Part shown: positions 17,627-54,156 of the stretch, in pieces
Layout: each line of letters starts with the position of its first letter
Position numbering within the stretch: the first letter of the stretch is position 1
From: Anagrus nilaparvatae
Taxonomy: Eukaryota; Arthropoda; Insecta; Hymenoptera; Mymaridae
Assembly (NCBI GenBank): GCA_022575985.1
Contig: JAKSXM010000263.1
Span: 11,016,001 to 11,080,000, forward strand
Length of the DNA stretch: 64,000 nucleotides
Direction of reading: 5' to 3'
Translations under genes and position numbers: made by a program
Notes under the pieces: model-generated
What the model was told of the DNA's origin: nothing
Database searches by the model: none
The model's input: the letters and a program-made list of their open reading frames with translations, nothing else

Positions 17627-17690
17627 AGGCTTGGTTAAATCAAAATTTGAAAAATCTATCTCAAGGGGAAGACACAGTAGACGCATAAAA

Positions 17691-21470: not shown

Positions 21471-23138
21471 GAATCATAGTAATTTTGTTAATTTTGACTG
21501 TAGCCAGCCAATCAGAGAGCAGCCTGCCAGCCGTCAGACACTCCCCGATTCCCCTTTCTTAAACGTATTAACATATAGTATAATACGTCGCGTCGCTCAT
21601 GTTATTCCTAAGTTCTGCCAACTATACAAAGTAATGAAAATAAGCGCACGATTTTTAAATGCAGCCAAGAATCTTTTTTTTAGATTTTAATTTAAAATAA
21701 TAAAATTTAATGTTTTAACATTTCAAAATATAAATTTACTTGTTTCTGATAATCTTTTTTTTTTTTTTAATTTTTTATAAATATCAGCTTTATAAATTTG
21801 CTTATTTCATATAAAAAAATTTTGTCACAAAGGAAGGAATATCTATAATGAAATTTGATTTGAAATGAAACTAAGTGACAATTGAAACTAAGTGATAATT
21901 AAAGTTAATATTAAAGGAATGAAGAAAAATTAGATAGGTATGTATAAATAAATAATTATAATTTAAACATTCTTAAGATTGATTTTGGTTATAAGAATGA
22001 CTTTATTGGATTATGAAACATATATATATAAATGTTTAAATAATATGTATGTTTTTTTTACATGTTTATTGTTACACATAAAATAAGGATGCTATTATTA
22101 TATATATTTAATATTACTAAATAGGTAAAAGAAATAGTAAAATGATATAGGTAAAAGAAATATATATAAAGATGAATAAAAAAATACCCATTATATATAT
22201 ATGTTTTCTGTTTCTCTTCTTCGTATTACATCTAAGTGTTAAACAAAAACAAAAGGAGATTTATAAAAAAAATAGTATTTTTATTATTTTATAGTTAAAA
22301 AATAAAGTGATTTTGTGAACATTAAAAACAATTTAAAAGACTGAAGAGAGAAAGAGATTATTACTCCGGTGCTGTGCTGTAAAAATAAATAAGTTATTAA
22401 AATTACAGTCTGTGCGCTTGTGAGTTTAAAAAAATTTTAATGTGGTGAAAATAAATTCTCTACCTTTAAATAATTATAATAAAAACTTATAAAGAATTAA
22501 TAATAATAATATTAATCAGCTTCAGGCTACTGACGATAATTTTTTTAATGACAACAAAGCTTTTTTAAAACTTTTTTTATCGCAATGTTGTTATTAATGT
22601 ACTGTCAAGGCTGCTCTGTGACTTGTACATAGAATCCAATCATTCACAATTTCAAATTAACGTTAAAGCAAGAACTTTTTGAACTACAAGTTATTACACA
22701 TTTTATTTACTTTTTAATTTTTAATTATTATTATTCAATATATATATATTTTCTTTTTAGCTAATAATTTTTAACATTTTTTTTGTCTATAAGTATATAA
22801 TCATTAAGAGATTAAAATTTTTGATATAAAAAGTAAAATATTAGAAAGTGCATTTTTTTATCATACAGCACATGATAAAAAACCATAGCTAAAAGTGTAC
22901 AAATACAAAAAATTTTTGTATCGTGCAAAAATGAGATTTTTATTATTTTTAAGTATTTCATTTAAAAACTGCTTTAAATTTAAATAAAAAATTTAGCACA
23001 TTTTTCAGATAGTAACATTTTGTCCAGTTTTTAAATATAAGATTGTTAATTTAATATTAAACTTATTTAGACTATCAGTTCTAAATTACAGCAACATTTA
23101 AAAAATTAAAAAAAATTATAAAATTACATTCATGTATT
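21471..23138. repeat. Left terminal inverted repeat of the giant element
   Basis: The outer ~640 bp (21471-22115) matches 53515-54156 inverted at high identity, including a GC-rich terminal part with gtagccagccaatcagag. The repeat then resumes at about 22800-23138 against 53170-53510 inverted (for example tttttcagatagtaa and ttttgtccagttttt). Between them lies an unmatched stretch of about 665 bp. Confidence 0.88.
22130..22795. other. Sequence present only in the left terminal repeat
   Basis: This stretch has no counterpart in the right repeat, so it is an insertion here or a deletion there. It is AT-rich with a 'ctccggtgctgtgctgt' patch near 22364-22380. No ORF or terminal repeats are obvious. 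Confidence 0.6.
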
Positions 23139-23199
23139 AATATACACATACAGCACAAAACGTTTCAGAAACGTTGTTATGGCTGTATGTGTATTCATA
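23138..23199. terminator. Strong hairpin in the minus gene 3' flank, next to the left TIR
   Basis: tacacatacagc pairs with gctgtatgtgta (12 bp), with an inner stem aacgtttc/gaaacgtt. It begins about 30 nt past the minus-gene stop codon (23227) and ends where the inverted repeat match ends. A role in 3'-end formation is inferred; the fold itself is seen. Confidence 0.45.
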
Positions 23200-23226
23200 A
23201 AACTCTAATTAGTTACTACATAAATT

Positions 23227-26200
23227 TTAAATATCTAGCAATTTCACAGGTATAATTGGTCTACTGCGAGTTGTTCTAGACTTAATAGTTATATAATTTG
23301 ATTCATCATCTGCTACACAATTCTTGACTTTGGTAACTTTTATTTTTGAAGATTCTTCTGTATCTTCTGACGTAATTTTATTTCTTTTTAAAGTGTTCTA
23401 AAAAAAACATACGTATTTAATATATTTATCTATTCTAATGTAGGCAAATTGAAAATTTTATAGATATTTCGGTAATTACTTTATTTGTTTTACTTAAAAC
23501 CATTTTTTGGGATACTGAACTGTCAATTGTTAGTTGCTCTTCATTATTATCAGCCAACATATTTTCTTTAGATAATGAACTGTTAATTATAAAATGTTCA
23601 TCTTCAGCTGTTTCACATACATGAGTATCAATGTCAAAGGTTTCGTTGCTAGGTGTATCATTTTTTTTATTTAATAATATACTAGCAGAATCTAATTCGA
23701 AATTTTCTGCAAAGAATAATTATTAAAATTACATTTTATATTGAAATACATAAAGTAAAGGCAATTTGAACTTTATATTTAGGTTTTACCTGTCTCTTTA
23801 CAAGAAAGTAAAGATTTTCTTGAGCTTTCATCAGATTTTAAGCCTGTTTTTTGAATAGGATTATTCAATTTCAATGGATCTGCTGTTTCTGTAAAAAGCA
23901 TTTCTTTCAGTATTATTAAATTATCTTTTACATATTCTTGGACAGTGTTGTACTTGTAATTAAAAAAATCATTCTCTGGATCTTCATCATCGCTATCTAC
24001 AATATTTGTAATTAAGTTTTTCTTATATGTTATGTCTTCAATGACAGGGTTCAAATCAACTAAAAAATATACAATTTATACATAATTTTTCATATAAATA
24101 AGCGGGTTATAAGTAATTATATGTATCAGAATTATATTCGTAAGTATAATGTATAAAATATATTTATAATATTTTAATACTAGTGTGCAAATTTTTTTAA
24201 AAATTGGATGAAATTGGATGCCATTTACCACAAAAATGAGATCCCCAAAATGGTAGCTCATTCAAATACTTCTAAGTGCTGCCATCAAGCTTTAGAGCCC
24301 ATATATTTACTGTCAGTCCTTAGAAGTTGAAAGAGCAAAAATATAGGGGATATCATTATTTTGATACAAGCTTAGTAATTTTACCTGGAAAAAATTTAAT
24401 TCTCGTTTAAGAAAGTTAATTTGACATTTTTTTCTAAACCTTTTCGCGGAGAAGCTGTATTTTGAAAACTAATCTTTAAGAAAATTTAATTTTTGCAAAA
24501 AAATTTATAATAATTTTATTAAATTTTGAAATCAAGGTTGCATTACGTTCTAATATAATTGTTTATATTAATACAATTTGTATTTTGAATAAGATTAATT
24601 GTTATATTCAAATAATACGCTACCAACTAGCTACCACTAAATGAGGAGTGGTATCAGTTACTGTAAATTTATTATTTTGTTTAAGGGAAATGACGAGGTA
24701 AAATTTAAATTTTTCGTTCAGATAATATTATTATCTTTTATGAATTAAGTTTAATACGTTTACCTAAGTCACAAAGTTCCAAAATGTTATTATTATTTTT
24801 GTAAATAGCCATCTGTTTTAAAAATTTTTCCTCTGACCAAGGAGGTACTGAATCCACACCTTTCCATGCATCCTTTACTTTTGCATCTAGCAGTTCATTA
24901 CGGTTTTCTTTGAAGGTCCGTTTTTTTTTTATCAGCTGCTGGTTAGACGTGATATTTATACGATTCATCTCATCTGAAAACAAATCAAAATACCATGTAC
25001 ATATTATTTTTCGGCATTACAGTTGGCAAACATACGAAGGCAGGCATTGAGTATTATTAAATGCAATATTTTGGTTACTTACTAAGCAATTTATAAGTGT
25101 TTGGATAGCTCGTGATTTTGCTATTAATATACATTTCATAAAAATACCAGTAGTCATTCGTTCTTTGGATCATGTTGAAGACGCTGAAAACATTTGGTGA
25201 AATTTCTTCCATCCAATACTTTTTGAATTTTGCTAAAAATCTTTTCCATTTTTTATCATTTTCGGAATTTTCAGATACTTTATTTTCAATGATTTTCAAA
25301 CCACCTTCTATTTTATTTGCTGGCAAAAGGGCAAGATTCATGAACATTTTTACAATAATGTACGTTGGTTTTGAATAATCATCATCAACTTCTTGTGTCG
25401 CACCTCTAGGAATTATACCAAACTCTTTGGCTAACTCCACGATCTCCTGTATATAAAAAAGAAACAAACTATTAATTTTTTAATAATAAATTCAACAAAA
25501 AAGAGGAGATTGTTTTGTACTGCGAGTAAAAAAAGATTGATATCTCCGTGTTAATCTCATAAATTATTATACTTTCGTATAAATTTTATGATAATTATAA
25601 TTAGTAAATAATTGGATTAAAAATAAAAGTAAAGATTATAGTAAAGATACTTTTTTTAATTGTACTGATATATAAATTTAAAAAAAAGATAAACAATAAA
25701 ATACTACAGGTGACAATACACAATTTGACGCATACTTACTTTTCCATAATGGAATAAGCTACCGTAAACTTTAATATCATCAAAAGAATTTTTTAAAGAA
25801 TCGTGAAGCGGCGGATAATAGCTTGTTACTGCAAGTTTTGGTTTAAATGATGGAATTATTTTTTGGTAATGACTCCATAGGCACTGAAATGATTTGGTCG
25901 TTAATTTTGACATTATACTCCAACTTAGTATCGTCACCTATATATTAAACAGAAAAATACTATAGCATTTTTTACATAAATATAGGGTAATTTCATGGTT
26001 ATTTAATACGATCAGCAGGATTAGTCATCAAATAATTTTTTTCTTCTTTCATTCAAAAGCATGTGATAAAATTAAATGATCCCCATTTTGAATCCTATTT
26101 TACGAAATGTGCATCCTTTACTCGGAAAATTCAAATTTGTGGCTAAAAGTTTATTTTTTTTTCAGAAATATTTCTGACAAGTTTTTTTTCTCAAACGTCA

Positions 26201-29200
26201 CACATCAAACAAATGAAATTTTATCTCATAAACGGGTGTCAAGATATTTTTTAATAAGAAAATTAATATTTATAAATGTTGGACTTGTACATAATAATTA
26301 ATATTATAATATGTATGAGTATTTCTTTTAAAATATTCAGAGGCAATATAAACAGAATTATAAACAAAATTTATACAAGAAACTTATAAACAAAATTTTT
26401 GGTTACTTTGTATCAAAAAAAAGCAACGAAAAACCCTTGAGCACTTCATAAAGGCCTCGACAAATAAGTTAAAAATGTTGATTTTTATACCTAAGGCACC
26501 CGGTTTTATCAAATTTCTCATTTTTTATTCTATCAAAAGGCAAGATAATTCCAAAATCCAAATTACAAATGTTAAATTACCCGATAACAAAAAACTAAAA
26601 ATTTTAGTTTCGGATAAAAAATAGTCGAGGTATCGTAAAATATATAATTTCTTTACTAGCGGGCAATAATGACATATTTTAATTTTCAGAGGCCGTAAAA
26701 ATTGACCTTTATAAATAAAAAATACATTCATAAACTCATTTAGAAATATTTATTATTACCAAATACGATTACAGGAACTCGGCGCTATGCGCCTCGTACT
26801 TTTAAACCTCCGCATTTGGCAAAATAAATATTTCTACGAGCCGGTTAAGAATGTACTTTTACATAAATTGATAATAAAAAAGACACTGTTTTTTAAGATT
26901 ACTAATAATTTTTTTTAAATTCCTTATCCATTAAAATATTCAAGAAAAAAAAATAAGACGTTATTTCAGTTTTTTAGTAGAAAATTGCTAAAAGTGGTGA
27001 GAAAATAAATGAGTATAAAAGAGTTGTCGATCCAAAAATGCAATTTTTTTTTTGAAATTTGAATGACCAAAGAAAAAATGTAGGAATTTACAAAATAATC
27101 ATATGTTTTCAATAAAAATTAACAAGTAATTCATTCTTCAAGTTACAAAAACAATGTTTTTAGTATTAAAAAAAATTTAAGCTTTTTTTTTATTACAAAA
27201 TTTTGTTAAATCTTAATCTCTGTCCCGGGTAATTGTTTTCTCTAAATGAAATGTAATTTTTTCTAAATTATAATTTTCTGTTTTTTTTTCTATAATTGAA
27301 TATAAAATAAGACATTTAAAAAAACCGAATGGCTGAGGCATAAAAAATCAGCAGTTTTCACTTAAAAATGCCAAAATATAAAATAATGTACTAATATTTG
27401 TAGGGAAAAAAATATTTTATTACAACATAAAAACATAGCATCTACCAATACTCCCGGTTCTACTTGAAAATATAAAGAGTCCTATCGTTGCAGTATAAAA
27501 CTGTAAAATAATATACAAGCAAAGTAAATAATAATAATATAGGTGAATATTCAAATCAGTTATTTATTAAACAAATGAAATAAAGTTGTATTTTACCGAA
27601 TGTGAAGGGAAGTGCCGAGGGACTGTGATCGCATTTTGTTAAATATATACTTATTTCACAACTTTTATTTATAATTTTATTTAAAAAGTTCAATATAGCT
27701 GTTTTCCCGTGCGTAAATCTAGTAAAACATACTTAAAACGCATGCTGTGAAATAAAATGTATTTACGTTCCATATTCATGACCAATAATCAACTTAAAAA
27801 TATTTATACTCAAAATTACTACTCAAATATATATTATTATCTAAAATTCTTATCTATCTATTCCTTGATTTAAAGCAGCACTTTCAGCGTTAACAACTTT
27901 TTACTTTTTTAAAATGTTTTAATTTTGAATTATATAAAAATTTATTTTCTTTTATCGTGAGTGCTTATTTTAAAGGTAATAAGTTCCCAAAGACCTAATA
28001 ATCTGATAGTCAGGGAATAATCCTAAAGTACCTTAAAGGAAACTCTTTTGGAGCATATGCAAGCGTTCTGGTTAAAAAATATACTATTTGATATAATTTA
28101 AATTTTAAAATCTCGAAAACATGAAAACAGTTTGTAAAACTTAAAGTTTTGCGAAAAATGGAGTAATGAGAGGCTAAAAATTTTGCTAAATACCTATTTT
28201 TCTTTGTACTTTTGATTACGGGTATTTTCGAGTCAATTTTAAGATATGACTAGAGAACTAAGTTTACTTTAGAATATCTAATCATATAATAATTTTTAAA
28301 ATTAAACCTTGTTAAATTTGTTTATCATTAGCGTCAAAATTCCTTCAATGCCATCAATATTAGGCTTTACATTTCGATAAAGATCAATAAAAATTTCCTC
28401 AACTCCATCTAATTCTCTTATTAAATTTTTGTCATACAAAATTAAATGATGACATTTTTCCGATGATTTTTCTAGATGCGGGAATATTTCTACTTCATTT
28501 TGAGTACACTTAAATTTTAGTCGATCTCCATCTTTACACAAAGCATTTTAAAATGCTGGTATATTCGTAAACTTTTCTTTGACTCCACCGTACATCTGGT
28601 CCTTCTTTCTATTTGATGGCTTTGAGTGATTTGTTCCGATGCTTTTTGTTTTTCTATAAACCATAAATTATTTTATCATACTATATTACTTTTCATGAAA
28701 TTTTTTTACATTATATACAACATGAATATTTAAATAAAGGTTAAAAAAATTTTTTTGGATATATTGAGTACTACATACTTTTGTTTTAATACATTTTATG
28801 CACAAGCGTAATCAAGTGAAAAATTCATTATGAGCCGTGCTTAAATTGAAGAGCTGCTTTGGTTGAAAATTTTTACCAATTGGTGTAAAATTAAACCAAT
28901 TGGTTGAATTTTCAACCAAAAGCTACAATACAAAATAAAAATGATGTTATTATAATACAGAGCAAAAAAATGATTTCTGCATCCATTAAAAGTGAATTAA
29001 TTTTATAATAGATTATATAATAAGTGACTTTTTATGTATTATTACCGGCTAAATATAAAAAAAAAATTTTAAATAAATATCTACATACAATATCTGAAAC
29101 TTTACTTAAATTAACAACTATATACCTATACAATCATAATCATGTTTTTTTTTACGGATGTATATACTTTTTTTTTTTTTAATTAAAAAACAATGTACTC

Positions 29201-32119
29201 TGCTGACTGGAGCAAAAATTTTAAATTTCTCTTTTAAAAATTAATTTTTGTAAAGCATACACCAAGAATCTTACATGTAGGTATAGTTTAAATTTAAAAA
29301 ATTATGGATTCAAATTTAATTAAGTAACCTTTTTAATTAGTCATTCCTCAGCTTCTGAACCAAATGAATAATGTATAAAAAATCACAGTTATGTAATATC
29401 TTATAAAATTAATTCACTTTTAATAGATGCAGAGATCATTTTTTTTACTCTGTATATTAATATTACATCATTTTTATTTTGTATTTTAACTTTTGTTTGA
29501 CTTTTAAACCGTTATGGATGAAAATTCAACCAATTGGTTGTAAATTCATGATGAATATTTAACGAAAGCAGCTCGATCGTGTAGAAATTTTAGTTTACTA
29601 GAAACCGTTGTCCTTTCTTAAAATTTCCAAATTTTTACAGTATAAATTTATCTTACATTTTCACTTCTTCTATCTTACTTTTTACTGTAAATTTGGTCTT
29701 CAGACATTGATTTTTTTATTTAGAATGAAAAGGGTATTATTAAATATTTCTTCAAATATTTGTACGCAATGTAGGATTATATTTAAAAAAAAAAAAACAG
29801 AAAATTTATTATATCTATTATTTTTAAAGAAAATTTAAGAAAATTTATTACATTTTTGTTAAAACGTTTAAGTCTAACCAAGGTTTTCGTCAAGTAGGAA
29901 ATATATAGGTTTCAGGGTTTCGCAAATCTATTGTAAACAGCATGGAAAAGTCGATCCCTATATATTTTCCGTGATTAAATGCATATACTTATCAACAAAA
30001 TTAACACTAACGTCTGTTGCATTAAAAACCATACATTTTTTCAAGGTGAATAATTAATTTTTTTTTATCGCATTGGAACTATAAAATATATAATATAATA
30101 TTTTTAAATATTTAAATCAAGGTTTATATTTACTCATTGAACATATTCTCTTGCGTAGATAACGGTGTAGATTGATTCTTGTCAATTTTTTTTTTTTTTC
30201 TTTTAATCTCGTGATCCTTCTTATCGCATATATGATCAGGTGGATCTTGGCCAATACGAAAACTGCCATCTTCATTAAAATAGATTTTAAAGTAGCATTT
30301 TACCTTATATTTAATACAGCTCCACCTGAAAAAAATCAATCGTCTTTTTAATTATCAACCTAATTTATATCAAAAGATGAAATTGCCTTTTAAAAAAATG
30401 TCTGCAAAATATATAATTTCATTATGCCAAAATAAATCAAACATTGAAGTGGATACAAATTTTCTTTTTAAAACAATTTATTTTTATAAATTAATAAAAA
30501 TTGATCTATCAATTAAATAATTATTTTTAAAAGTTTAAATATAAAATTAGGAAAATTGTAGGTTATGCGTATTTGTTTGAAATAAAAAAATCGATATTTA
30601 CACATCTCCGTAAAATAGAATTTACAAACAATATTTTTAAATACATTTTTGGATTACATAAAATCAATGAATAATAAAATTAATAAAGTATATTAATAAA
30701 ATATATGAATAAAGTAAATTAATAAAGTATTCTATAAGTTATGAGTTTTATGAAAAAAAAGAAAAAAAAATTTTTTTAAATACCAAGATGTATTTATTTA
30801 TCAATCATGCCCTGTTAAAATAACAACGCGATAAATTTGAAATTTTTAACTAAATTTACGAAACAATTGTCAAAAATATAGTAAATATATGAATTTCCTT
30901 CGTAGATTAAAAATTTTTAGGCATTATTGGAAGTTTTTAAAATTGTATAATTTTTTGAGAATGATGTTATGATAATGTTATAAAAAATATAATCTACTTC
31001 ATAAAAAAAAAAAATGATAAAAATTGTGTAAATCATATATACTTGTGAAGTTATTTAAAGCCATTTCAATGACTCATTGCCCTATAAGAACTTTAAATAA
31101 TTTTAAAAAACTTCTTTTATATAGGAAATTTGAAGAAAGTGACCTTTAATCATCTTTTTTTTGCATTTATTGCATAAAACAAAAAAAAGGTCTATAGAAA
31201 TGAAAAGTTTATAAATCAGGTGTGAAGTAATTTCGAAAATTTCATACTAAAATAAGGGTGTGTCATAATACCAACCGCACCATAATACCCGCGTCTCCCC
31301 TAAGTTTTAAGTTATAAAAATACAAAATTATAAAATTTAATTTTATTGGCGCATTTATTTTTACTTTGCATTTTGTTACTTAAATTTTCAAATTATAAAA
31401 GTACAGTTTATCAGAGCAATTTTTTTTTTGTTTTTTTACGCATTCTTTTTTAGACACTATTATAATATATTCATTGCAGTTTGTTTCAAGCTATTGGGTT
31501 TAATATATATTAATTTTTCTTTGTCTTTTATTATATAAAATAATAAATTATAGCATATGTGTCTGAAAGTTATCCAAACGTTTATGAATTGAATTTTACG
31601 TGAAAAAATATTAATATTGTTATAGGTGAAATTTTGATTTTTTGGCATATATTTTTTTCTGAAAAATTTCCGCATAAAAAAAACAATATTTTTTTTCTTC
31701 CGAGACCTAATACTTAATTTTTTTTCTATGGAATTACTGATATCTAGAATTATTGTTTTTACTAGATAAGACCATTTAGAATATTCTGCTTAGTGCCAAT
31801 TACTTGGCAGCATTTTTTAAAAACAATTTTACGGTTTTTATTTTAATAAAGCTTTATATTGATTAAGTAACTTTAGGATAGAGATCTTTCAAATTATTAT
31901 TTGCAAAAGAAAAATATACATTAATTAAATTTACTTTAATTAAAATTAATAATTTAATGGAAAAAAATTACAAAATAGTGAAATGTATACTTACATCATT
32001 TTTTTCTTATCGTGGGAATGAAATCTGTAATCCTTATACCACAAATTACCATCTATAAAAGTCGGTATTCTTTTTTGTCTTTCAAATAGACTGTTTTGAT
32101 CAACAAGATCTTGAGACAT
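23227..32119 (-). CDS. MULE/FLYWCH-like transposase paralogue with lost active site, 9 exons, one premature stop
   Basis: Exons on the minus strand: 32119-31995, 30325-30134, 28653-28308, 25937-25740, 25446-25083, 24973-24764, 24059-23790, 23706-23480, 23397-23227. They total 2103 nt (701 codons), every join keeps frame and uses GT-AG. An in-frame TAA at 28550-28548 (codon 141) is the only break. The N-terminal FLYWCH-like finger has W43, C45, C52, H73 and C75. Exon 3 keeps a first Asp (D196). Exon 4 aligns residue for residue with the plus gene (WSIMSKLTTKS), but SDFE has become TSYY and GCVFHFCQ has become GSLFHYGK. Exon 5 has RTND where the plus gene has TTNN, and the catalytic Glu is a Tyr. 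A Ser/Asp/Glu-rich tail (exons 7-9) extends about 200 residues. A regulator or DNA-binding partner is possible; recent pseudogenisation is the alternative. Confidence 0.75.
25938..28307. other. Minus-gene intron 3, no further gene seen
   Basis: AT-rich sequence between exons 3 and 4 of the minus gene. Apart from the hairpin at 26742-26835 I see no coding or repeat structure. A GC-richer patch at 27600-27635 is unassigned. Confidence 0.4.
26742..26835. repeat. Hairpin repeat in minus-gene intron 3
   Basis: agaaatatttatt...accaaat pairs with atttgg...aataaatatttct around a slightly GC-richer loop (gaactcggcgctatgcgcctcg). It looks like a short foldback insertion. Confidence 0.5.
28848..29578. 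mobile_element. MITE of about 730 bp with inverted ends, in minus-gene intron 2
   Basis: The left side (gagctgctttggttgaaaa, aaccaattggttgaatttt, atccattaaaagtgaattaa) reappears inverted on the right (ttaattcacttttaatagat, attcaaccaattggttgtaa, cgaaagcagctc). Arms are about 150 bp, separated by AT-rich filler. No ORF. Confidence 0.7.
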
Positions 32120-32976
32120 ATTTTTTTATAACCAATTTTTTTAACAAAAAAATAAAAAATTCTTTAACAGTACTAGCATAACTCACAAAATTTCTGTTAC
32201 AAACACAAATTATTTACACTTTGAAAATTATTTTTGTTTTTCAATAAAAAATAATGTTGATTTTCATATGCCCTTGAAGTCACTTCCTAATTAACCGTGT
32301 GTAATCAATATAAATATATCCCAAGACTGCACGCATGTAAAATAGAATAAAAATTAACGCAAATAAAACAGTGGTTCAATAAAAAAAATGCTGCCTTTAA
32401 AACTTTGCTTTTAATAACTTAGAGGTTAGCAGGATTCTAACGCCACGCGTGGTCAAAATGTTAGCTAATATCTTTTATTACGATACATGTAAACATTCAC
32501 AAACGACCCGCCATATTGGGAGTTTTTCGTACACTAGCGACAAAAATGTCAAAATCTGGTAAATCCTGCTAATATATATTGAGTAAGCGCGCGCTAACAC
32601 ATGTATCGAACGCGGTAACACATATATCGATATGAAAGCTCAAATCTGCGAATGCGCACGCAGTTTATTAAACCACCCCGCGATTAAACTAAGAAGAAAA
32701 AAAATTAAGGAAATGTAGAGTTTTCATGCAGATTTATTACAGATCGGTATACTTGTGCATCGTTATTTTTATTAATAGTATAACACATTATTTTTCGAAA
32801 ATTGAAAATACTGCCGGTTTTTTTTTATAAGATATCAAAGTGTCGAATTTTTCGTTTCTTTACGAATTAGAAAATATAAACCGCGATGTGATATTAAACA
32901 AATATTTGAATGTCATCAAGAAAAGTTAATAAAATCGTTTTGACTAGCCATTATATTTTGCAAGTGATTTCAAAAA
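32120..32976. promoter_or_regulatory. Bidirectional promoter region between the divergent transposase genes
   Basis: The two ATGs (minus at 32119, plus at 32977) are 857 bp apart. A segment at about 32440-32690 is distinctly CpG-rich for this window (acgccacgcgtgg, agcgcgcgctaac, gaacgcggtaac, gaatgcgcacgcag, accccgcgatt). Short repeated strings such as 'acacatgtatcgaacgcgg' and 'acacatatatcgata' lie side by side near 32598-32630 and could be binding sites. Promoter function is inferred from position and composition. Confidence 0.55.
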
Positions 32977-41900: not shown

Positions 41901-44900
41901 GAATAATTTGAAGTCAATATTGAAGAAAAATTTGAAACTTGTTTAAAATGAATAATTCAATATTGTTTGCAAAAAATTTTTAAACATATGAGAATCTTTA
42001 AATATATTAATTCTTTTTTTATTTGTCAATTTAGTCTTTTTTTTTTACACAGTTCTATTTTTATTTTTTTTAAAGACATATTTCATAACAATCTTTATTG
42101 ATTTATTTATATTTTTTGACATATTCAAAATACCCTAAAAATCATATTACTGCCACATTTAATTAAAAAATAATATTATTTGTAACTTAAAATTTTTTAT
42201 AAATTTATAAAATTATGCCCATTTAACCTATGACCTTCAAAGCTATTCAAAACTTACATACTTTTCGTAAACATAGATTTTAACAATTTGACGTGGTTTT
42301 GCGAGATTTTTTTTTTTTTAATTTGAAAAAAACAAAAAAATTTTCTACATTGGAAAAACATAATAGTTTATAAATAGTCCTGTCGCCAGCAATGCTATTT
42401 AATGCCATAAAATAGCTTAAAAGTTCCATGGAAAAAAATGGGTGGTATTTATGTTTTTTGACCCGCTGAACACGAATCCGGGGTCCGTTTTGCGAATTTC
42501 GTGGTCAATTTTTTGTTATCAAGAAATTATTGCAAAATTGGCCAATAATTTGTTAATAAAAAAAAATTGACCACGAATTTTGCAAAATAGACCTCGGATT
42601 CTTGTTTAGCGGGTCAAAAAATATAAATACCACCCATTTTTTTCCATGGAACTTTTATTCTATTTTAGGATTTTATGGCATTAAATAGCATTGCTGGCGA
42701 CAGAACTAAAAAGTTCTGTTATTTTATAAGTGCCTTCAAATCATACCCCATGAATTTTTTTTTCGAAAAAAATAGGTACTTTATGGAAATTAAAAAAAAA
42801 CAACCGGAAGATAGTATTTATGGCATCGATAAATTTGCAAACAAATGTAGTTTGTTAAGTTCTATTTTTCGATTATTTAACGCATGCGCAATTTAAAACA
42901 ATTCAATTAAATGCTGATCCTTAAATGAAAATATTAGGAAAGTTTCGTATCTAAACCTACAAGAAAATATTCTGCCAGTAGGATAGTACTTTGCTTCCTC
43001 AAAGAATGTAAAAATGCGATCCATGTATTTTTTTATTTTATTCCGTATAAAAAAATGGTGAAATAAATATACCTCGAAAAAAAATGTAAAAACGACGGGG
43101 AAAAGTTGATTATTATTTTTTTTTTTTTTGTTTCTTTATTAATTTGTTATTAGAATATACCTCAATTTGACCAAAGTAAAACTAGTTTAATTTTTTTTTA
43201 CAGGAAAAAAAGATAAAAAAAAAAACAACCAAAACGTTTTCTTGAAAATTTTAAGGTAAACGTTCTAGTAGTTGAACGATCAGCAGAACTTGAACGATAG
43301 CCTTCATTTTGATTATTTTAAAATTATTCCTTAAATTTTAATAAAAAATTATTGAGCCTTTAAGCTTATTGGCCACTGATTATTTTTAAAAAAAATTTAA
43401 TTATTAACTTGTGTAATGGCTGAGAAAACTAGAATTAAAATTAAGTTTTTCAAAAAATATTGATTTTCTTAAGAATTTCTTAAGATTTCCCGTTTTAGTT
43501 TTAAGCAAATAAGAAACGATTGAACCAATGGATGTTAAAAAAAAATATATTAGTTTTTTTCAAAACCTTTTCCTCTTGAAAATTTACTAATTAAAAACTT
43601 TTTTTCATTATCCGTTTTCATACGATGTTATACATAAATTTTTCTCGCAAGTGAAATGGTTTGCAATTTCTACACTGAAAATAAATATATTTATAAAAAT
43701 ATAATTCAATTCAATTAAAACATTAGTTTTCAGACATGATACACTTACTGAAAACAAAAAACAAAAACGAAAATTCCAGGAGGCAATCTAAATATTTTAT
43801 TCATGTCGTAAACATTAATAAATTCTCATACTCAAATTCAATGAATATTAAAAAATATAGCTTCAATACAATCAAAAAAAAGATAGTTCAGAGATAGAGT
43901 TACCCATTATTTATCAAATCGTTATTTGTCACTATTTCTGTAACTAATGAGCAACTCCGGCTAATTATGATTTTAAAATTATTTTTTTTTGATTGTATTA
44001 AAGTTATTTTTTAATATGCATTTAATTTGAATATGAGAATTTATTAATGTTTACGAAATAAACAAAATATTGTACATATCTAGGGCAAAAAAAGCCTATT
44101 TTCGCTCGCTACGCTCGCTCGTGCATACAACTGCATGCAAAGCCAAAACCAGTATTTTATCCCTTATTTAATAAATAGCTATATTTTTTCAGGAAAACGG
44201 GTTTTTTCAAATAAACGCCCAGCAGCTGATATTTCAACAAATTTTACGGTTCATAAAAAAGTTATACCCAAAATAATTCAAAAATCTTTTATTATATCTA
44301 ATAGGAAAAATCGGGTCTTTTACGGAAAATGCGTTAGTGTAAGTTACTCCTTGACTATGCAAAGGTTTTAATCATTTTTTTGTGTTCAAAAAATATATAT
44401 TTTACAATGATTAAAATTTTAAACTTGTAGAGAAAAAAATAATTATTTAAGTTGGATTGCAAATCACCCGGTGATGAAAATTTACTGTTTATGTCATTTT
44501 TATAGTCAAAAACACATATTTTGAACATTCGAAATATGTTTTTTTGACTATAAAATGACTTAAACAGTAAATTTTCATCACCGGGCATTTGAAAGTTACT
44601 TAAAAGTTAAAAATAAATTTATCTTTTTCTGACAAACAATTATTTTTTTTTATTTTCATAATTGTTTTTGTGTTTCTGACTATTTGCAATCCTTTGAACA
44701 TAAAAAAAAAAATTAGTAGTGACAAGCGGAAATCCGCTTGCGGCAAATAGAAATCCGCTAGTGGCAAGCGAAATTCCGCTTGCGGATTTTTTTTTCAGTG
44801 TAATTAAGGTCTATCAATTTGACTAGTTTCTAAATGTTCTAGCAAGTTATTAATATCTATGTAAGAAATTAATCATAAATCTCAGGCTTTTTTGATTTCC

Positions 44901-47900
44901 TCGCCGTGCAGATTTAAAGCTTCCCCAGGGTGTCTCTAAGGTCAACTTTATCAAAGCTTTGGTTGCGGTATTTAAAATTTAATTTTTTTTAAATAAAATT
45001 ATTTTGCTAGTTTTTATTTTTTATACATAAAATAAAAAAAATCTTAAAAAAATTGAAAAAAATGTGGCATATTTATAAAACGATGTTAATAGTAAACTTT
45101 GAGAAGTATGTAAAATAAAAAAAAATTCTGTAAACTATATTTTGTACATTAAAGTTATTATACATTTTGAATAAACACAAGTAAAAGTATGCAAATGAGT
45201 ATATAAAAGTATGAAACATTATATTTACTTATAATAGATAAAAGTAAGAAGAAATTTTAATACGGTTTAATAGCGTGAGTTAATAACAAAAAAATTTGTT
45301 TCAGGTACATATGTATTAAAAGTACTACTTTAGGTTGCGAAGCGTCTTTTACTTATCAAGAAAATCAAGTACCAATATTAAACGGTATTCATAAATGTCC
45401 AAAGGGATCCCATAAACTCTTGGGAGCAAGAAGGATAAGAAAAGCCTGTCAAAAAAAATCTGCAGACACAGAGGGTCTTATAACTGCAAGGCAAATCTTT
45501 GACTTGGAGTGTGAAAAGTAAGTCCTTCGTTTTTTTACATATTACAATATTTAAATGTATCCAAAATCATTCGGTATATAATTATAATTGAACAAAAAGC
45601 TGTAAACAGAGAAAATTAGCATCGATTAATCGTTAAATAATTTTATGAGCTTACAAGGTCAAAATTCGAATTTTTTTTCACAAAATAAATTGTTAGTGCA
45701 AAATCATGTAATTAAAAATCATGCAAATTAATCATGCAAAATCATGTTACTGCAGGTGTCACTATGCACAAATTTTACAGCCAATAGCGTAAGATAAATT
45801 TGCAAATCAAATTTACAACAAAACGGTATAAAGGTTTCGTATTTTTACAATTAGTCGGTATTCCATAAGAAAGAGAAGATTTGCCTTTATTAATATACCA
45901 TTTAAAAATAAAAAATAAAGTTGGAAAATAAAGCTTAAAATTCAAATTATTATTGCATAAATTTAAAATGAATTTTAAGTAGGAAACTCGCTAAGCTGTC
46001 TTTGTAAGAGCAAAATTTAAGGTTTTAAAAACCTCTGTGGCTATAAATTAATGTTAATTTGGCTGCAAAGAAATCCCTAAATAATATTTAACTTATCAAT
46101 AAAATGAGCAAATAATTGAGAAATAGATCTTGGAGGTTACAAATCATAATTATATAGTACATAAATATTATTCAAAATATTTTCTAACAAAATAATTATT
46201 CCACGGCTTTCACGATAAAAATTGATTAAAAATGCGTTTCTCTATCTTGTTGGCATTTTCAATATTACCGATGATTTCTTTGTATATGCAAGTTTCACAA
46301 TATCGTATGTGCAGAAAATGTTGAGAAAATCTAAGTTGCTATTTATAAATTTTTTAAATATATGAATTTCAAAAAAAAAAAAAATAGCCGCCAGTCTAAT
46401 TTGTATATCCCATCCTAGGATATATACAAAAACTTATTTTAAATCAAGTATACGATCGTAAAAGTAGTGTAATAATGAATTTTTCATTACACGCTGCAAA
46501 AAAGGTCTACTTTCTTACTTTCGGGCGATCTTTTTTTCGCTCTTAATGAAAAACTATGTGTTGAACACGGGAAAAAATGTAGGAAATTTTACTTTCAATG
46601 CTGTCTGCACTCGTTCGCTACGCTCACTCGTTCATACAACTGCATTGAAGGCCAAATCCTACTTTTTTTCCCTTGTTGAACAAATAGATATTGTGCACTG
46701 AAAAAAAGTCTGCTTGCCATAAGCGAAAAAAATTGGCTTAAAGCAAGGGGAATTTGTTAAATTTATTAATTTTAATAAAAAATTTTTCATTTTACATGTA
46801 TTTCCTATTTAGCATGTGTCCAATTTTTTCTTTTCAGCAAACTACATTATTTTTACTTCTTTCTTAAATCTTTATTATGATGAAAGCTCTAATCTTAATC
46901 TTATTATGCGACAAGTAATTATTAAAAATTGTTACTTAATCTTTTACGAAGTAGATGTATTATTTTTTTTTGCTATAATATTTAACAATTTTACTTTTCG
47001 CAAATATATTGTGTCAATTCCCGTCAATGGCTATAACCCAATCTATTCGTCTGGAAGTATCGAAATAAAAATTTGTTTTTATTATTTAAGCTAAATCATT
47101 AGCGCACTTTCGGTCAGGCATAAAGAAAAGTAGTATACGACACGCATGCCAAAAATTGAATGCTCAACCTTGCGTGATTCGTGATTATTTCACGCAGGGG
47201 CCGGAAAATTAATTTTCGGCCCTTGTATCGTAATGTACAATTTATTCAGAAATTTCTAATCACTAATATATTGTGTACCTTTAAAAAATATATTATATAG
47301 TAAATAATAAAGTTTATTGATAGTTAATAAACAAATAATTTAGTTTATACTTTTTAGAAGTATTATAATTAATAAGAATGTTTTGTTGGCTGCTTTACCA
47401 ATGCCGTATTTTTGTAGAAAATCAAGAAAATAAAATAGAATATTTTTAAAACGGATTATTTAATATAGGAAAGAATTTAAAAAAAAAAAAGCAAAATGCA
47501 CCTACGTAGGAACAAGAAAATTATCAAAACGCAATAAAGGAGTTAAAAAACTCCTAAAATTATATACTCTAAAAAATATTTTGATTTAACTTTGTGCGCA
47601 AAGTTTAATTTTTTTCACAGGAGGGACAACTGTATAGTTAACAAAATTTTTAAATGAAAACATATTTTAAATTCGTCAGTTAAATGTATATTTTATCAAA
47701 CGCGATTAAACTTTTGCATTTGGTGTAATACAATTTTAATGTCAGTAGTTTAGAAAAATACAATATTTTCAAAAGTTGGTTAAATGTAGGTACTTACTTA
47801 CACCAATAATTTTGCACATTTTTTTTTATTATAAAAATTAAGTTAATTTTATTTTTCTATTACAAAAGTTACTTTTTTTTTTATTTTAATTTTAGATCCT

Positions 47901-50900
47901 GAAAGATTAATTTTTGCAATAATTGAAGTTTATATTAATATTCGATTTTATTGCATTTTACATGCTTTAAGACCTCTGTAATTCAAATTTTGTATTCTTA
48001 TGGAAATTCTGTGTATGTGTTGTATACTTATGTGTGGGGTGTATACGTACACAGCTAACTCGAGCTTCGAGTAAGCCATTATTTCTAAATGTTTTGGTTT
48101 CTTTATTGTCGTGTACACATCCTATAAATTAGTTATTTAATTCGATCAAATTAACAGTTTTATTTACGTAAGCTTTAATAATCAGAATACCATTTCATTA
48201 ATTTTTTGTGTTACTTTCGTAATTATTATTAATAAAGTCTTTCTTTAAAAAGTCTCTTTTTTAGTTAATAGCGTTCATCGAGTACTTATAAATTGCTGTA
48301 TATTAAACAAGGGATAAAATATTGGTTTTAGCTATGCAGACAGCATGCGAAAGTCGAACCTCATATTTTGTCACGTGTTGCAAAAAATAGTTTTACATAT
48401 AATGGGCAAAAAAGCAACCTCCCTAGGGTAGAAAATAAGCTATTTTTGCCCCAGGTATGTAAAATCCTATTCATTATTTTCTTGAAAAAATGAAAAAAAT
48501 TTTTCTGCCTTGGCCTAAATTTCGCGCGTAAAACTTTCAAAGGAATTTTCTGTGTTTGTTATACACTCAGACAGGAAAACATCGTAAGCAGCATGAGCAC
48601 AATAATTAAGAGACTTATGTGATCACTTATCACATACTTATCACTAAAATTTTGTGACCTTGATGCTTAGTATACTATATTTACCTAATCTTTAATGTGT
48701 TAGAAAATTATAAAAATTTTAATTGTTAGAGAATCATATTTTAAAATTTGTTTGTATCGTTCATTACCTATTTTTAACATCTAAAAAACGTATTAATTTT
48801 TTTTTAATCTGACGTAGTATAAAAAAGTTTCATTCACGGATTATTTGATGTATCATAAAACTTAAGATTTATTCATAAATTTATCTAAATCCAAGTGATA
48901 ATTAACATTTTACCTAATACAAAAAAGTTTTTTAGAGTAATTTATAATGTATCAGAAAACTAAAAATTGAAATTTTTGGGTTTATTTATAGATATTTTGA
49001 ATAAAAATAATATTTTTGGAATTGTCTTGGTTCGCTTAAATATGTATTTTGAATAACTAAAAATTGTAATAAATTTTTTGGTTGATATGACCTAATACAA
49101 ACTAGTTTTATATATTAACTTCATTTCGTATTATTTTGTTATGTAACAATTAAAAACAATTCACTGGTACATTCAGTGGCAAGAGAATTCCAGAAATGCA
49201 TTTTCGGGCAGCAGACGAGAAATAATTATTGCATTTCAATTAAAACTATGTTATCAGGTATTTGAATTAAAGAAATGTAATTTATTTATTTTTCTTAAAA
49301 TTATTGCAGAAATGAAGAAGATGGCTGTGAAGCATCATTTGTAAATATGCAGAAAAGTATAAGTAACGCAGGAAATGCTAAAGAATTCATGCCTATAAAA
49401 ATACCTTCTGGAATATTCCCAAACATCCAAACTTTTGCTAAACACTTGGAAGAGAATCCTGATTGCCTCAAAAGAGATAAAAATGATGAAAAATCTGCTT
49501 TAAGTTTTAAGCTATTAAAATCTGGTAGTAAAAGTTTTCACCTTATATTGTACGATAAGGAACTTATTGAAGAATTCGATGATAATAACGAAATGAATTC
49601 AGACGCAACGTTTGACATAATTCCTTCAAATATAAAAGGTGTTATGCAATTTTTTACGATTATGTCAAGCAAAAATGGTATTGTGAGTACAAATTTTATT
49701 TCTTATGTAATATTTTGCAATTTTGTAAACATATATAAACAAAAAAATTAAATTCTGTAAATTACAATATATATTAATTGTAATTTAAAAAAATTTTTTT
49801 ATATGAGTGTTAATAAAATTATTTTTTAATATGAATATAAAATATAAATAAAAGGAAGTTAACATAAATTCTCATTATTTCCGTTTTGATCCAATTTACA
49901 TTATTGGTTTTTTACAATATCATGAAATGACTTTAAAAAAATCATGAAAAAAAAAATTATTAAATCTTATTTTTATAACTTTTTCAGACAGTTCCAATCG
50001 CATGGGTGCTAATGTCAAGAAAGACTACATTAGCATATAACAGTATATGGACATTTTTAAAGAAAGAATTTCCGAATTTCATGCCAATGTTCTCAATGAG
50101 TGATTTTGAATTGGCAATTCTAAACTCTGTGGCTCAGTCTTATAATGGAATAAGAACATGCGGTTGTGTGTTTCATTTTTGTCAGGTAACTTTAAATTAA
50201 AAATGAATTTTATTATTAATTAAATTATTCTTTTTTGAATGGCATACAAATCAACACAAACTTATATAATTACTATAGAACAATTATACACTACAAAACG
50301 ATCGTAGGCCAAAAGAAATAAAAAATTGGGAAAATCACAGATAAATTACCATCCGAGTCTGTTTTTCGAGGAATTTTTATTGCGTATAAACGAAAAGTAG
50401 AATTTTCCAATTAATTAAAAAAATTTTGATTGTCTGTAAAAATTTGTGTGTATTCCATATTTTAATTCGTTTAAAATTGAAAATTAAAGCGCTATGTATA
50501 TTTTTTTAAAATAAGTGACTATCATCAGAGAAAACCTTATCTCTGCTATCATTTACAAAACGTTAAAACGTTCATATATTCATCATTGTATATTATATAT
50601 TTAAATGTAAATTAAAATGACGTCAAAACAAATAATTAAAAATTTTTCTTCCTCTTTCAGGCCGTCATAAAAAAGGCTAAAGCACTCAAAATTTTGTTAA
50701 AAAAAGATAATGCAAGAGAAAACAAAACTGGATATGACATTATCAAGAGAGTACTAGCATTACCCTATTTACCTCAGGATAAAACTCAAGAAGGTCTAAC
50801 TTATATAAAGAGTTTAGTAGATAAAGAGTTCTCTGGAAATAGGGCTTGGAGCTATTTCATTAACACATATTTTGAAAAGCAATGGATGCGAATTGCCACT

Positions 50901-52398
50901 CCAAGTAGATTTAGCGTGTTTAAAGCACCGGTCACAACAAATAACGTTGTGGAAGGATATCACAGAACTTTGAATAAAAGAATTAAAAAAAAGCCCAAGG
51001 CAAAAAAATTATTTAGTAAGTATACAAATAAATATTTTAACTTAAAATAAAGAATAAAAATAATTTTATGAAAAGTTGTTTCATATTTTTTATCATTTTA
51101 GTATAGTTATGTAGAAGCATTGTAGATTATGTTATTTAATAATTAGTCTGAGTGAAGTATGCGTTAGCATACTTTACTTAAGTTATATCCCCAAATAAAT
51201 AAATGGTAAATGACATAAGGTGAGTTAGTTTGTGCAAAACTGGCTATATCAATGTATATTAAAATATCAATAATATTAAATTTTAACGGAATGCCTTATT
51301 AAAAACCATGCCTCAGTATTATATGATTTTTTTTTATTTAAAAAAATGAAATATAATAATAAAGAAAATTGCATCCTTTTCTTGATACATCGAGTTTCAC
51401 ATAACTCTTTGGCACGTGTTAAGAGTTTTTCAGCTAAAAAAAAAATTATAAAAAAACTTTTATCCGGTTTCTGTACACACAACCAAAATGCATGGAACAT
51501 GTTTACTTACATCTGAGCATAGACACACAAATTACAATACAATTTGCTATTTTTATAATTTGTATTTACTAAAGGTTAAGATTCTAAACCCAAACTAAAA
51601 TAATTCCCTAAACGCGTATGATTCTAGGTCCCTAAATCAAAAATATCTTAAGTCCCTAAACCCGGATTATTCTAAGTCCCGAAATTAAAATTATTTTAAT
51701 TACCATTAACCTCCCCTTAAAATGAACAAATTTGACCCCACCCCTTAATTTTTAAGTTCTGAGGTACCTCCTCCTTATAAACATGTTCCATGTTAAATTT
51801 AGTACTATAGCCCTTGATGTGAATTATCAAAAAATTTAGCATAGCGAGTAATTCTCTCTAATGTACAATATCAATAATATAATAAATATCTATTTCATTA
51901 CAGAAAATGTAATATCAGTGATAAGTAGATCAAAGTTAGATTTGAAAAGGGCTGCAAAAAATTTAAAAACATCTGATGATCAAAAAAAAAAAACTAAAGA
52001 GAAAGCTTCAATAATAAAAGACTTGACAGATTTACTAGTAAATGATCTGATTGATACCAAACAATTCTTAGACAGAATTATTAAATTTGATACTGAAGAA
52101 GATCTAAGGTTTCATCTTATAGATGAAAGTACGGAAATAAAAAGATATAAATCTTAAAATATTTTTTAAATAATCGCACTATGAATATTATATTTTTTAA
52201 TAATATAATTTATTATTTCTAGTTCAAGAAGATGATAGAAATATTTACGCACGACCGGTAGATGATGAACCAGAAGAAATTATAGAAGACAGTGATGACG
52301 AAATTGTTGAAGATTTTTACGACTTGGAATTAATGGAGGTCCAAATAAATAATCAAGTCAATGAACTCAATGCAATAAGAAACCAAAATGCATGTTAA
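32977..52398 (+). CDS. FLYWCH zinc finger/MULE-type transposase, 7 exons, 549 aa, intact
   Basis: Exons: 32977-33086, 45305-45517, 49310-49682, 49988-50185, 50661-51015, 51904-52128, 52223-52398. All junctions are GT-AG, all phases agree, and the sum is 1650 nt with no internal stop. The FLYWCH-like finger spans about residues 13-70 (C40, C48, H66, C68). The MULE transposase core carries DATFDIIP (D206), VPIAWVLMSRKTTLAYN, MSDFELAI (D271), CGCVFHFCQ (291-298) and TNNVVEGYHRTLN (E396). These match the DGTF...P, xDFExA, GCxFHFxQ and NNxxEGxH signatures of the MULE DDE domain. The C-terminal exon is acidic (EDSDDEIVEDFYD). It should bind the element's inverted repeats and cut and join DNA in the nucleus. 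Intron 1 is 12.2 kb and holds the host-gene cargo. Start choice: the FLYWCH frame opens at this ATG with context caaaaaATGG. Confidence 0.85.
33410..34290. repeat. Four degenerate repeats in intron 1, spacing about 240-330 bp
   Basis: 'tttattattaatcatttaac' recurs near 33425, 33750, 34010 and 34245. It is accompanied by 'gattaatatttgtagc'-like and 'gtactattgatcgtac'-like text. Non-coding. Confidence 0.5.
34560..35429 (-). pseudogene. APC: APC-like host gene fragment (ARM repeats and beta-catenin-binding-like motif)
   Basis: Minus-strand reading starts at a preserved splice acceptor (tttaatttcag, exon from 35429). It gives SSSDNLRQVIVSAL, SFS, stop, LTDSSNK, stop, TLQEFGVVVGLIKAATERS, then in a shifted frame CTVNGALAFFIEL and APCKTLAIIE. 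These track the APC armadillo sequence (QVIxSVLRNLSWRADxxSK, TLREVGxVxxLMxxA, ICAVDGALAFLV, KTLAIIE). Further down, near 34625-34660, DYAEANLEQPANYIV resembles the DQPxxYSLKY beta-catenin-binding repeats. APC scaffolds beta-catenin destruction in Wnt signalling. This copy has several stops (Trp to stop among them) and frameshifts and cannot be functional. It lies antisense in intron 1 of the plus transposase. Confidence 0.78.
35430..38755. other. Intron-1 DNA between the APC-like and ZUP1-like fragments
   Basis: Mostly AT-rich and without clear coding signal. A candidate minus-strand exon follows an acceptor-like 'ttccattgcag' (exon from about 35921), but I could not identify it. A GC-richer patch at 36900-36995 is unassigned. 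This could be original host intergenic and intronic DNA captured together with both genes. Confidence 0.4.
38760..40880 (-). pseudogene. ZUP1: ZUP1/ZUFSP deubiquitinase host gene copy with introns retained, decayed
   Basis: In order on the minus strand: a zinc-finger remnant (PVQECPTSLFGSDNLLKL, about 40380-40440), FNCPLCFIDFSKSSDLELHV (about 40235-40295), TCPICF (about 40040-40080), and the ubiquitin-binding block EFVMLQAQYGMDNQGNFR (39846-39900). The C78 peptidase follows with EWGCGYRNTQML (39505-39533), KWIGATEVV (near 39300), HSRQTIMGVE (39006-39038), LVLDPSYSP and SKVLCSLRIPPE. Functional ZUP1 cleaves K63-linked ubiquitin chains in genome maintenance. Introns remain: GTATAT...AACAG at about 39642-39712 and GTAAAG...TTTTAG at about 39040-39101. 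So the copy came from genomic DNA, not mRNA. Stops (before DKEW, before GHSR, after INR and HVNI) show decay. The most N-terminal assignment (40560-40880) is weak. Confidence 0.85.
41320..41502. mobile_element. Palindromic foldback MITE, about 180 bp
   Basis: gacacacctagataatgata...ttactttttgcgtt is followed by its inverse aacgcaaaaagtaa...ttattttctaggtgtgtc. The spacer at the centre (near 41411) is only a few bases. Confidence 0.85.
42366..42710. mobile_element. Palindromic foldback MITE, about 345 bp
   Basis: Left arm: ctgtcgccagcaatgctatt, ttccatggaaaaaaatggg, gacccgctgaacacgaatcc. The inverse fills the right half to aatagcattgctggcgacag. The centre is near 42538. Confidence 0.88.
43788..44075. 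mobile_element. Palindromic element, about 290 bp, with an unmatched centre
   Basis: Arms: aatattttattcatgtcgta, aacattaataaattctcata and caatacaatcaaaaaa, inverted as tttttttgattgtatt, tatgagaatttattaatgtt and acgaaataaacaaaatatt. About 90 bp of non-matching sequence lies between them. Confidence 0.75.
44088..44180. repeat. Dispersed repeat with 'gctcgctacgctcgctc' core
   Basis: 'ttcgctcgctacgctcgctcg' with 'catacaactgcatgcaaagcc' here recurs as 'cactcgttcgctacgctcac' with 'catacaactgcattgaaggcc' at about 46605-46650. A partial inverted copy sits near 48308-48350 (gggataaaatattggtttta). The copies are in introns 1 and 2 of the plus gene. Confidence 0.65.
44455..44598. mobile_element. Palindromic foldback element, about 140 bp
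   Basis: caaatcacccggtgatgaaa, attttactg and catttttatagtcaaaaa are inverted as tttttgactataaaatg, cagtaaat and tttcatcaccgggcatttg, with the centre near 44523. Confidence 0.8.
45518..49309. other. Plus-gene intron 2, repeats but no gene
   Basis: AT-rich. It contains the 46560-46690 and 48305-48370 copies of the 'ctacgctc' repeat, and a GC-richer patch at 47105-47230. I found no coding signal. Confidence 0.4.
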
Positions 52399-53169
52399 AT
52401 TGTAAAATCACCATTTGCATGGCTAATAATTATAAATAGTACCAAAAATTGCAAAAAAAATTTTATTATTTTACTAAATAGCTTTTTAAATTTTTTTATT
52501 CAAATTACCAATGTTTACTTATTATGTGTAAAAAAGTCAACCAATTTTTCCACTTTTTTGTCTTAAATTTTTTGCAGCTATTCATGCTAATATGTTTGCT
52601 TCAAATTCTAGATTCGTTTAAATTTAACAAAAATTTATAATTAAATTACGAAAAATGAAGCATAAAAATAAATTCTTGAAAATGAATAATCGTCATATAA
52701 AATATAGTAAAATAAAATTTTTTTCGTAATTTTCTGTACTCAATAAGTAGGAAAACATTGGTTGATTTAATTTTAAAGTTTTTAGTTAATTTAACATTTT
52801 AAATTAATAAGTATAGTTATATGAATATTAATACAAAATCTTCATATTCAAAAATATATTAAATATGCAAAATATATATATATATATATATAATACAATT
52901 ATATGTATATTAATATAAAATATAAATAGTATTTAAAAAATTTTTTAAATATAATTTTTAAAAGATAAATATTAAAATTAGACATCTTTAAAAATATAAT
53001 AATATTATCATACTTTTTGAATAAAAAGTAAAACTAATAACTAATTTGAAATTTTAATGGCTTAAAAAAATGAGTAATAATAAAAAAATCTTAAATGTAA
53101 ATTATTTAATGTTAAAAATGAATAAAAAAATTATTAAAAATATTATGTAAACATATTTTGCTAAGTTCA
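52399..53169. other. 3' flank of the plus transposase gene
   Basis: Non-coding AT-rich DNA between the stop codon and the right inverted repeat, with an (AT)n run near 52872-52892. No counterpart of the strong hairpin found on the minus-gene side is visible. Confidence 0.45.
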
Positions 53170-54156
53170 CATGAAAGTAATTTTATAATGCTTTTTAATT
53201 TAATAAATTTTGCCGTAATTTAGAACTGGTAGCCTACATAATTTTTAATATTAAATGAATAATCTTATATTTCAAAACTGGACAAAATTTTACTATCTGA
53301 AAAATGTGCAAATTTTTTTTAAAGTATAAAATTAAAAGAGTTTTTATATGAAATGCTAAAAAATAATAAAAATCTCATTTTTGCATGATACAAACATTCA
53401 ATTGCATTTGTAAACTTTAGCTATGGTTTTTTATCATTTGGTGTATGATAAAAAAATGCACTTTATATTTTACTTTTTTTATCAATAATTTGAATCTCTA
53501 AATAGTAATATTAAGTATATATATAATAATAAAAGCATATTTATTTTATGCGTAACAATAAACATGTAAAAAAAACATACATATTATTTAAACATTTATA
53601 TATATATGTTTCATAATCCAATAAAGTCATTCTTATAACCAAAATCAATCTTAAGAATGTTTAAATTATAATTATTTATTTATACATACCTATCTAATTT
53701 TTCTTCATTCCTTTAATATTAACTTTAATTATCACTTAGTTTCAATTGTCACTTAGTTTCATTTCAAATCAAATTTCATTATAGATATTCCTTCCTTTGT
53801 GACAAAATTTTTTTATATGAAATAAGCAAATTTATAAAGCTGATATTTATAAAAAATTAAAAAAAAAAAAAAGATTATCAGAAACAAGTAAATTTATATT
53901 TTGAAATGTTAAAACATTAAATTTTATTATTTTAAATTAAAATCTAAAAAAAAGATTCTTGGCTGCATTTAAAAATCGCGCGCTTATTTTCATTACTTTG
54001 TATAGTTGGCAGAACTTAGGAATAACATGAGCGACGCGACGTATTATACTATATGTTAATACGTTTAAGAAAGGGGAATCGGGGAGTGTCTGACGGCTGG
54101 CAGGCTGCTCTCTGATTGGCTGGCTACAGTCAAAATTAATAAAATTACTATGATTC
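53170..54156. repeat. Right terminal inverted repeat of the giant element
   Basis: About 987 bp matching the left repeat inverted. The outermost 215 bp are GC-rich (gattcttggctgcatttaaa, gagcgacgcgacgtatta, gggaatcggggagtgtctga, ctgattggctggctacagtc) and nearly identical to the left copy. Confidence 0.9.

Follow-up and report, generated by a model that had tools for sequence, protein, structure and literature searches.

MuDR of maize is an autonomous MULE of about 5 kb with long terminal inverted repeats (TIRs) and two genes, the second of which, mudrB, is not a transposase paralogue. hAT transposons also make 8-bp target-site duplications and have hAT transposase domains and short TIRs; the duplication of Polinton/Maverick elements is 6 bp. 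For Mutator/MULE elements, target-site duplications of 8-11 bp are given in PMC6446971. According to a 2026 survey, arthropod MULEs measure 1.4-10.0 kb and mostly contain one ORF; two-ORF elements were found in six of the surveyed species, with a total transposase of 495-721 aa (PMC13359780). In that survey, each match was enlarged by 5 kb to either side and had to cover 80% of the DDE domain (PMC13359780). The passages of PMC5225508 that describe the Muta elements report an N-terminal FLYWCH domain in 13 of 14 families, and changes in the DDE motif of the mosquito MULE Muta1 that abolished transposition. As treated in PMC6431247, Polintons/Mavericks encode a protein-primed DNA polymerase and an integrase, DNA transposition is reported to be hampered by large cargo, and none of the Pack-MULEs of a 2004 report was larger than a full-length 7-kb element.

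We analysed a 64,000-nucleotide stretch of Anagrus nilaparvatae DNA, hereafter the window (C373:11016001-11080000 of the 488.7-Mb assembly). A preliminary description had placed in it a single very large transposon of MULE type and had remarked that known animal MULEs are much smaller, which agrees with the range of the arthropod survey. We consider with good confidence that the window holds such an element and, in it, the two-gene system of a giant MULE lineage of the Mutator superfamily.

Boundaries and copies of the element

Positions 21471-54156 of the window form one MULE-type DNA transposon of 32,686 bp, the proposed unit being borne out by the PF10551 domain of one of its genes (gene B), by its inverted ends and by its 8-bp duplication. 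The left end starts with GAATCATAG at 21471 and the inverse of the same sequence terminates at 54156. The left TIR (21471-22119, plus strand) and the right TIR (53503-54156, minus strand) are long, as announced, and the alignment of the outer ~650 bp contains 644 identities in 654 columns (98%, with 5 gap columns). Among the inverted repeats listed for the window, the one formed by these ends is the longest (631 nt, 99%). Further inside, a block at 22795-23135 (plus strand) pairs with the inverted 53169-53511 (minus strand), with 297 of 347 positions identical (86%); on the right side this block overlaps the inner end of the TIR by a few bases. Its offset between the arms implies that the left arm contains ~675 bp that are absent from the right arm. 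The alignment of the arms, which had been suggested as a means of dating, shows five differences in its first 622 columns, or ~0.8%. For an insect rate of about 3e-9 mutations per site per generation, and provided that the two arms started out identical, the element may have inserted on the order of a million generations ago.

The target-site duplication GAAACTAT is perfect and lies at 21463-21470 and 54157-54164, as established by comparison of the flanks and by alignment of the satellite junction. With the base composition of the window, a chance 8-bp match at two fixed places has a probability of 7e-5, a figure that overstates the weight of the match taken alone, since this 8-mer is itself a satellite motif, found 18 times in the window when both strands are counted. 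When the flanks were joined by script with one GAAACTAT, they aligned without break to the 115-bp satellite consensus through the junction, confirming that removal of the element restores the satellite reading. The cheapness of the match is answered by this continuity and by a second element that has a different perfect duplication. Arrays of the 115-bp satellite are located at 20025-20618 and 61776-62712, one on each side of the element and in opposite orientation.

The second element, at C1:6987715-7026829, is 39,115 bp long and contains the same two genes, A and B, in identical head-to-head order. Its ends (186 bp) are 96.8% identical to each other and ~70% identical to those of the window element, and it is flanked on both sides by the perfect 8-bp duplication AAATCTCT. 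The preliminary description had counted flanking 8-mers that differ between copies as a refutation; they do differ here, which refutes nothing since target duplications are expected to differ from copy to copy. Ends and duplications of both sides were verified for two elements, those of the window and of C1. The C1 element also shows a 3.2-kb inverted duplication of 98.6% identity (C1:6990440-6993640 and 7025063-7028264), in which the right end and 1.4 kb of outside flank sit within the left part of the element.

A decayed relative is found 1 Mb from the window element, at C373:9.97-10.02 Mb. It aligns piecewise, with 70-96% identity, often near 90%; one end was found, without the outer 10 bp, and a search of 90 kb failed to locate five of the seven gene B exons. 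In a genome search, ends at least 90% like those of the window element were found only in this element and in the decayed copy. The absence of any second copy, named beforehand as a refutation, is thus disproved by the C1 element and by this relative. Lone ends related to the TIR occur at C147:124355-124555 and C62:39665844-39665994, and no partner end was found in the 60-70 kb examined around them; the examined DNA contains no match to gene A or B around the C147 end and one weak match to gene A around the C62 end.

About a quarter of the window element is of other origin. In intron 1 of gene B, the window has two copies of TTAA, the second at 41617-41620, with 8,350 bp between them, and the decayed copy reads CACACTTAATACTTTTC across the insertion point (C373:~9.97 Mb). 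Since the empty site is kept in that copy, 33263-41616 (8,354 bp) is a later, nested insertion, so that the very large size described for the MULE stands for the whole unit and has to be reduced to ~24.3 kb for its core. The nested insertion ends in short imperfect inverted repeats, GGACATGTTCGG and GGCCATGTTCAG. It contains an open reading frame at 34657-35028, for which a PDB search gave a best E of 0.65, and at 39789-40112 a piece with 41 residues resembling the deubiquitinase ZUFSP (7oje, E 5.7e-12). Both sequences lie inside the insertion and hence arrived with it, which rules them out as cargo captured by the MULE; neither was matched in the examined regions of C1, C373, C147 and C62 (E <= 0.01).

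Pfam searches with nine flanking ORFs of the window gave nothing besides one zf-RVT match below cutoff (E 0.004), in the open frame 63382-63807, which is probably a retroelement remnant. Among the flanking frames without a match at E <= 0.01 are three consecutive long plus-strand frames at 11542-14009 (535, 109 and 163 aa) and a 213-aa frame at 17613-18254, which we take to resemble the adenovirus-type cysteine proteases of Polintons.

The two genes of the element

Gene B occupies 32977-52398 on the plus strand. Its seven exons (32977-33086, 45305-45517, 49310-49682, 49988-50185, 50661-51015, 51904-52128 and 52223-52398) have GT/AG borders and encode 549 aa in a frame that is open throughout. 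Pfam recognizes the MULE family PF10551 (E 6.6e-7, 30.1 bits, for a cutoff of 27.6), and the residues D, D and E align with the catalytic residues of known MULE proteins. MULE transposases are marked by a zinc finger of FLYWCH or SWIM type; for gene B, no zinc-finger family appeared at E <= 1 in the Pfam search. A PDB search with the core gave a best E of 0.23. A protein-database search gave 3 matches among 7997 candidates scored, all of which contain PF10551; one is an Aphis gossypii protein with 30% identity.

Gene A lies on the minus strand at 23230-32119, in nine in-frame exon pieces (31997-32119, 30136-30324, 28308-28649, 25740-25937, 25084-25446, 24765-24974, 23791-24060, 23480-23707 and 23230-23397) whose splice borders were chosen by eye. 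An in-frame stop is present in the third piece (28548-28550); the matched C1 pieces have none. With this stop, the window copy can be called autonomous only tentatively. Both genes are thus as rich in introns as had been described. The start codons of A and B diverge from an interval of 857 bp (32120-32976), which, from its position, is presumably a shared promoter region. Gene A aligns with gene B over its full length with 25-27% identity, the aphid protein being about equally far from B. It is this alignment that identifies A as transposase-type, since its Pfam MULE match is below cutoff (E 0.12), as is that of its N-terminus to FLYWCH (E 0.035). No protein-database candidate out of 6555 aligned with it at E <= 0.001.

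That the element carries two transposase-type genes therefore holds, with the restriction that A has no complete catalytic triad. In the A genes of the window and of C1, the first D is kept; the position of the MSDFE motif of gene B reads AVTSYY or AVTAYY, so that the second D is absent, and in place of the catalytic E there is Y or S. Of the CGC motif, gene A retains the histidine and neither of the cysteines. The second D was read in these two elements.

These properties place the element in the Mutator/MULE superfamily: it has 8-bp duplications (GAAACTAT in the window, AAATCTCT in C1), long TIRs (~650 bp in the window, 186 bp in C1) and a PF10551 match in gene B, that of gene A being below cutoff; the DDE triad is complete in B. 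We reject membership in hAT, as the Pfam match of gene B is to MULE, with none to a hAT family, and the TIR is ~650 bp long, and membership in Polinton/Maverick, as the duplication is 8 bp and not 6. The Pfam search of the element covered five chosen proteins.

Between the window and C1, gene B is 69% identical (dN/dS 0.117, 533 codons) and gene A 64% identical (dN/dS 0.199, 596 codons), the aligned C1 pieces being free of stops. The calculation passed over codons interrupted by a stop or a gap, A8 had no counterpart in C1, and the ratios are rough since dS is high (1.2-1.8). With this reservation, the value of 0.20 points to purifying selection on gene A. Comparison of gene A of the window with that of the decayed copy gives a dN/dS of 0.41 (392 codons), a weaker constraint that includes the decay of that copy; the corresponding value for gene B was discarded because its B5 match is an A exon.

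The gene pair across the genome

A genome search with exon 5 of gene A returned at least 83 matches at E <= 0.001. Among the neighbouring matches less than 60 kb apart, 22 of 28 pairs are divergent, four are (+,+), one is (-,-) and one convergent. For an expectation of one in four, this excess of divergent pairs corresponds to p 4e-9, or to p about 4e-8 when likely duplicates are removed (20/26). The pairs on C171 and at C95:21.15M were left out of the figures based on 20, since similar offsets or scores mark them as likely, though unproven, haplotig duplicates of pairs on C1; C342:18.47M and C196:15.55M are almost identical to each other and perhaps not independent, and L047 and L055, equal in sequence, may be allelic. 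The divergent pairs have 13.7-50.6 kb between their exon-5 matches.

The E motif was read in 40 matches and also in the gene pairs of the window and of C1, which covers about half of the 83; 37 of the 40 stretches were readable in frame, L042 and L050 stopping short of the motif and L068 being frameshifted. Once duplicates are set aside, 14 of the 20 divergent pairs show the E in B and not in A. Two pairs have the E in B and an A exon that ends short of the motif, one has an A without E opposite a B that is frameshifted at the motif, and for the pair at C337:3.44M the reading of the motif covers one side. The pair at C342:14.51M contradicts the difference between A and B, having the E on both sides, and the pair at C79:4.36M consists of two B-type exons. 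The convergent pair (C234:1.436/1.477M) again has the E in B and lacks it in A.

The A-like exon of the C342 pair, L071 (C342:14511104-14511367), lies opposite a B gene and reads TNYYLELYY with the E kept; it may come from an A that branched off early or from a B that has been altered. On C79, the two B-type motif stretches (4358352-4358597 and 4388591-4388836; 81 bp) have the same translation and opposite orientation and are 30 kb apart.

In a tree of exon 5 with 26 rows, the 20 A rows form one clade with 99/99 support and a long stem, to which this genome's four B rows do not belong; the root is uncertain because the two outgroups have long branches. None of the 18 A rows in the tree whose motif is readable has the E; all 21 in-frame B-type rows have it. 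Within the A clade, exon 5 gives dN/dS values of 0.16-0.29 for five closer pairs (dS 0.36-0.83) and of 0.12-0.13 for two distant pairs (dS above 1.6). No stop occurs in at least 71 of the 83 matched A exon stretches, and seven are listed with one stop. Three sets of A exons are ~99% identical (98.8-99.1%), each on different contigs, which suggests recent movement and is consistent with it without being proof.

A possible two-component transposon and its closest counterparts

We propose that gene B, as the catalytic DDE transposase, would excise the element at its inverted repeats and reinsert it with an 8-bp duplication, presumably by cut and paste. Gene A would be a diverged paralogue of this transposase: the catalytic E (and the second D, where read) disappeared from it, probably once, and selection has since retained the gene. 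It may have kept surfaces for DNA binding and assembly and act as a non-catalytic partner, and a mixed complex of A and B might draw the two distant ends together. By analogy with the DDE changes that abolished transposition of Muta1, as reported in the relevant part of PMC5225508, A should not catalyse alone; it probably has a job, since its frame and much of its sequence have been kept under selection beside B. We give roughly even odds to A being a partner in end binding and synapsis, and favour this role over that of a brake and, after it, over that of a promoter regulator. Our broader proposal is somewhat more tentative: that a giant MULE lineage of about 24-40 kb could be a two-component machine, in which a catalytic gene and its anciently inactivated, selected sister, arranged head to head, move ends that are far apart.

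One rival reading concerns the unit itself. Two separate small elements could flank unrelated genes by chance, and lone related ends, as had been foreseen, do occur on C147 and C62; they leave the two-ended cases intact, and the exact duplication with continuous satellite across the whole unit, together with a C1 element whose related ends enclose the same two genes and which has a duplication of its own, makes such a coincidence extremely improbable. We reject it on the strength of the C1 element and the satellite continuity. A more reasonable objection, which we hold to be unlikely yet not negligible, is that the size is biologically meaningless and that an ordinary MULE had its introns swollen by other repeats in a repeat-rich genome. 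The nested 8,354 bp of the window element and the 3.2-kb inverted duplication of the C1 element fit this idea, but the core still measures ~24 kb without the nested piece, and the spacing of 13.7-50.6 kb in 20 non-duplicate divergent pairs is that between exon-5 matches alone.

The role of A admits further readings. P elements have KP-type repressors, and A could likewise act as a brake encoded by the transposon itself: an inactive transposase that, bound to the ends or to B, keeps transposition down. That A has lost catalytic residues while retaining sequence and frame would suit a protein still able to bind ends or a partner; a brake should, however, be retained less consistently than an enzyme, and A stands opposite B, with the motif difference, in 14 of 20 pairs, so that we regard this reading as possible and clearly less likely than partnership. 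A regulator of transcription from the shared A/B promoter, with no direct role in cutting, would agree with the head-to-head genes 857 bp apart and with the weak, sub-cutoff FLYWCH match at the A N-terminus, but conservation in A extends beyond the N-terminal domain to most of the transposase core, and we find this role improbable. The stop codon of the window copy and the lost catalytic residues could also denote a merely decaying duplicate. Against this stand dN/dS values well below 1, both between the window and C1 and in seven A-clade pairs, the preponderance of stop-free exon stretches, and a single A clade in place of repeated losses. Decay is accordingly very unlikely, and we reject A as a plain pseudogene on the evidence of selection in dN/dS.

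The element can be set beside the systems described above. The arthropod MULEs of the survey share with it TIRs (there up to 1193 bp), target-site duplications and a DDE MULE transposase, but they are far shorter and mostly have a single ORF (PMC13359780). With its 5-kb extension and its demand for 80% DDE coverage, that survey would not capture an element so large and so rich in introns; if our reading is true, surveys that extend matches by only 5 kb overlook such MULEs of 24-39 kb. In the literature searched, with narrow terms that do not prove absence, we found neither a giant MULE from an animal nor any MULE accompanied by a conserved dead paralogue.

MuDR resembles the window element in having two genes and long TIRs and differs in the nature of mudrB and in its size of ~5 kb. 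Muta of Aedes aegypti is similar in its 8-9 bp duplications and in its transposases of 416-554 residues, several of them intron-bearing; the Muta elements differ in having one transposase each, and the sections of PMC5225508 that describe them mention no catalytically dead paralogue beside it. If our proposal is true, the gene pair would make it possible to examine in a natural system whether a transposase can cope with distant ends when it has a non-catalytic partner. In size, the element joins the tens-of-kb class of giant transposons presented in PMC6431247 (Polinton, Teratorn, large Helitrons and enlarged CACTA), all of which belong to other superfamilies.
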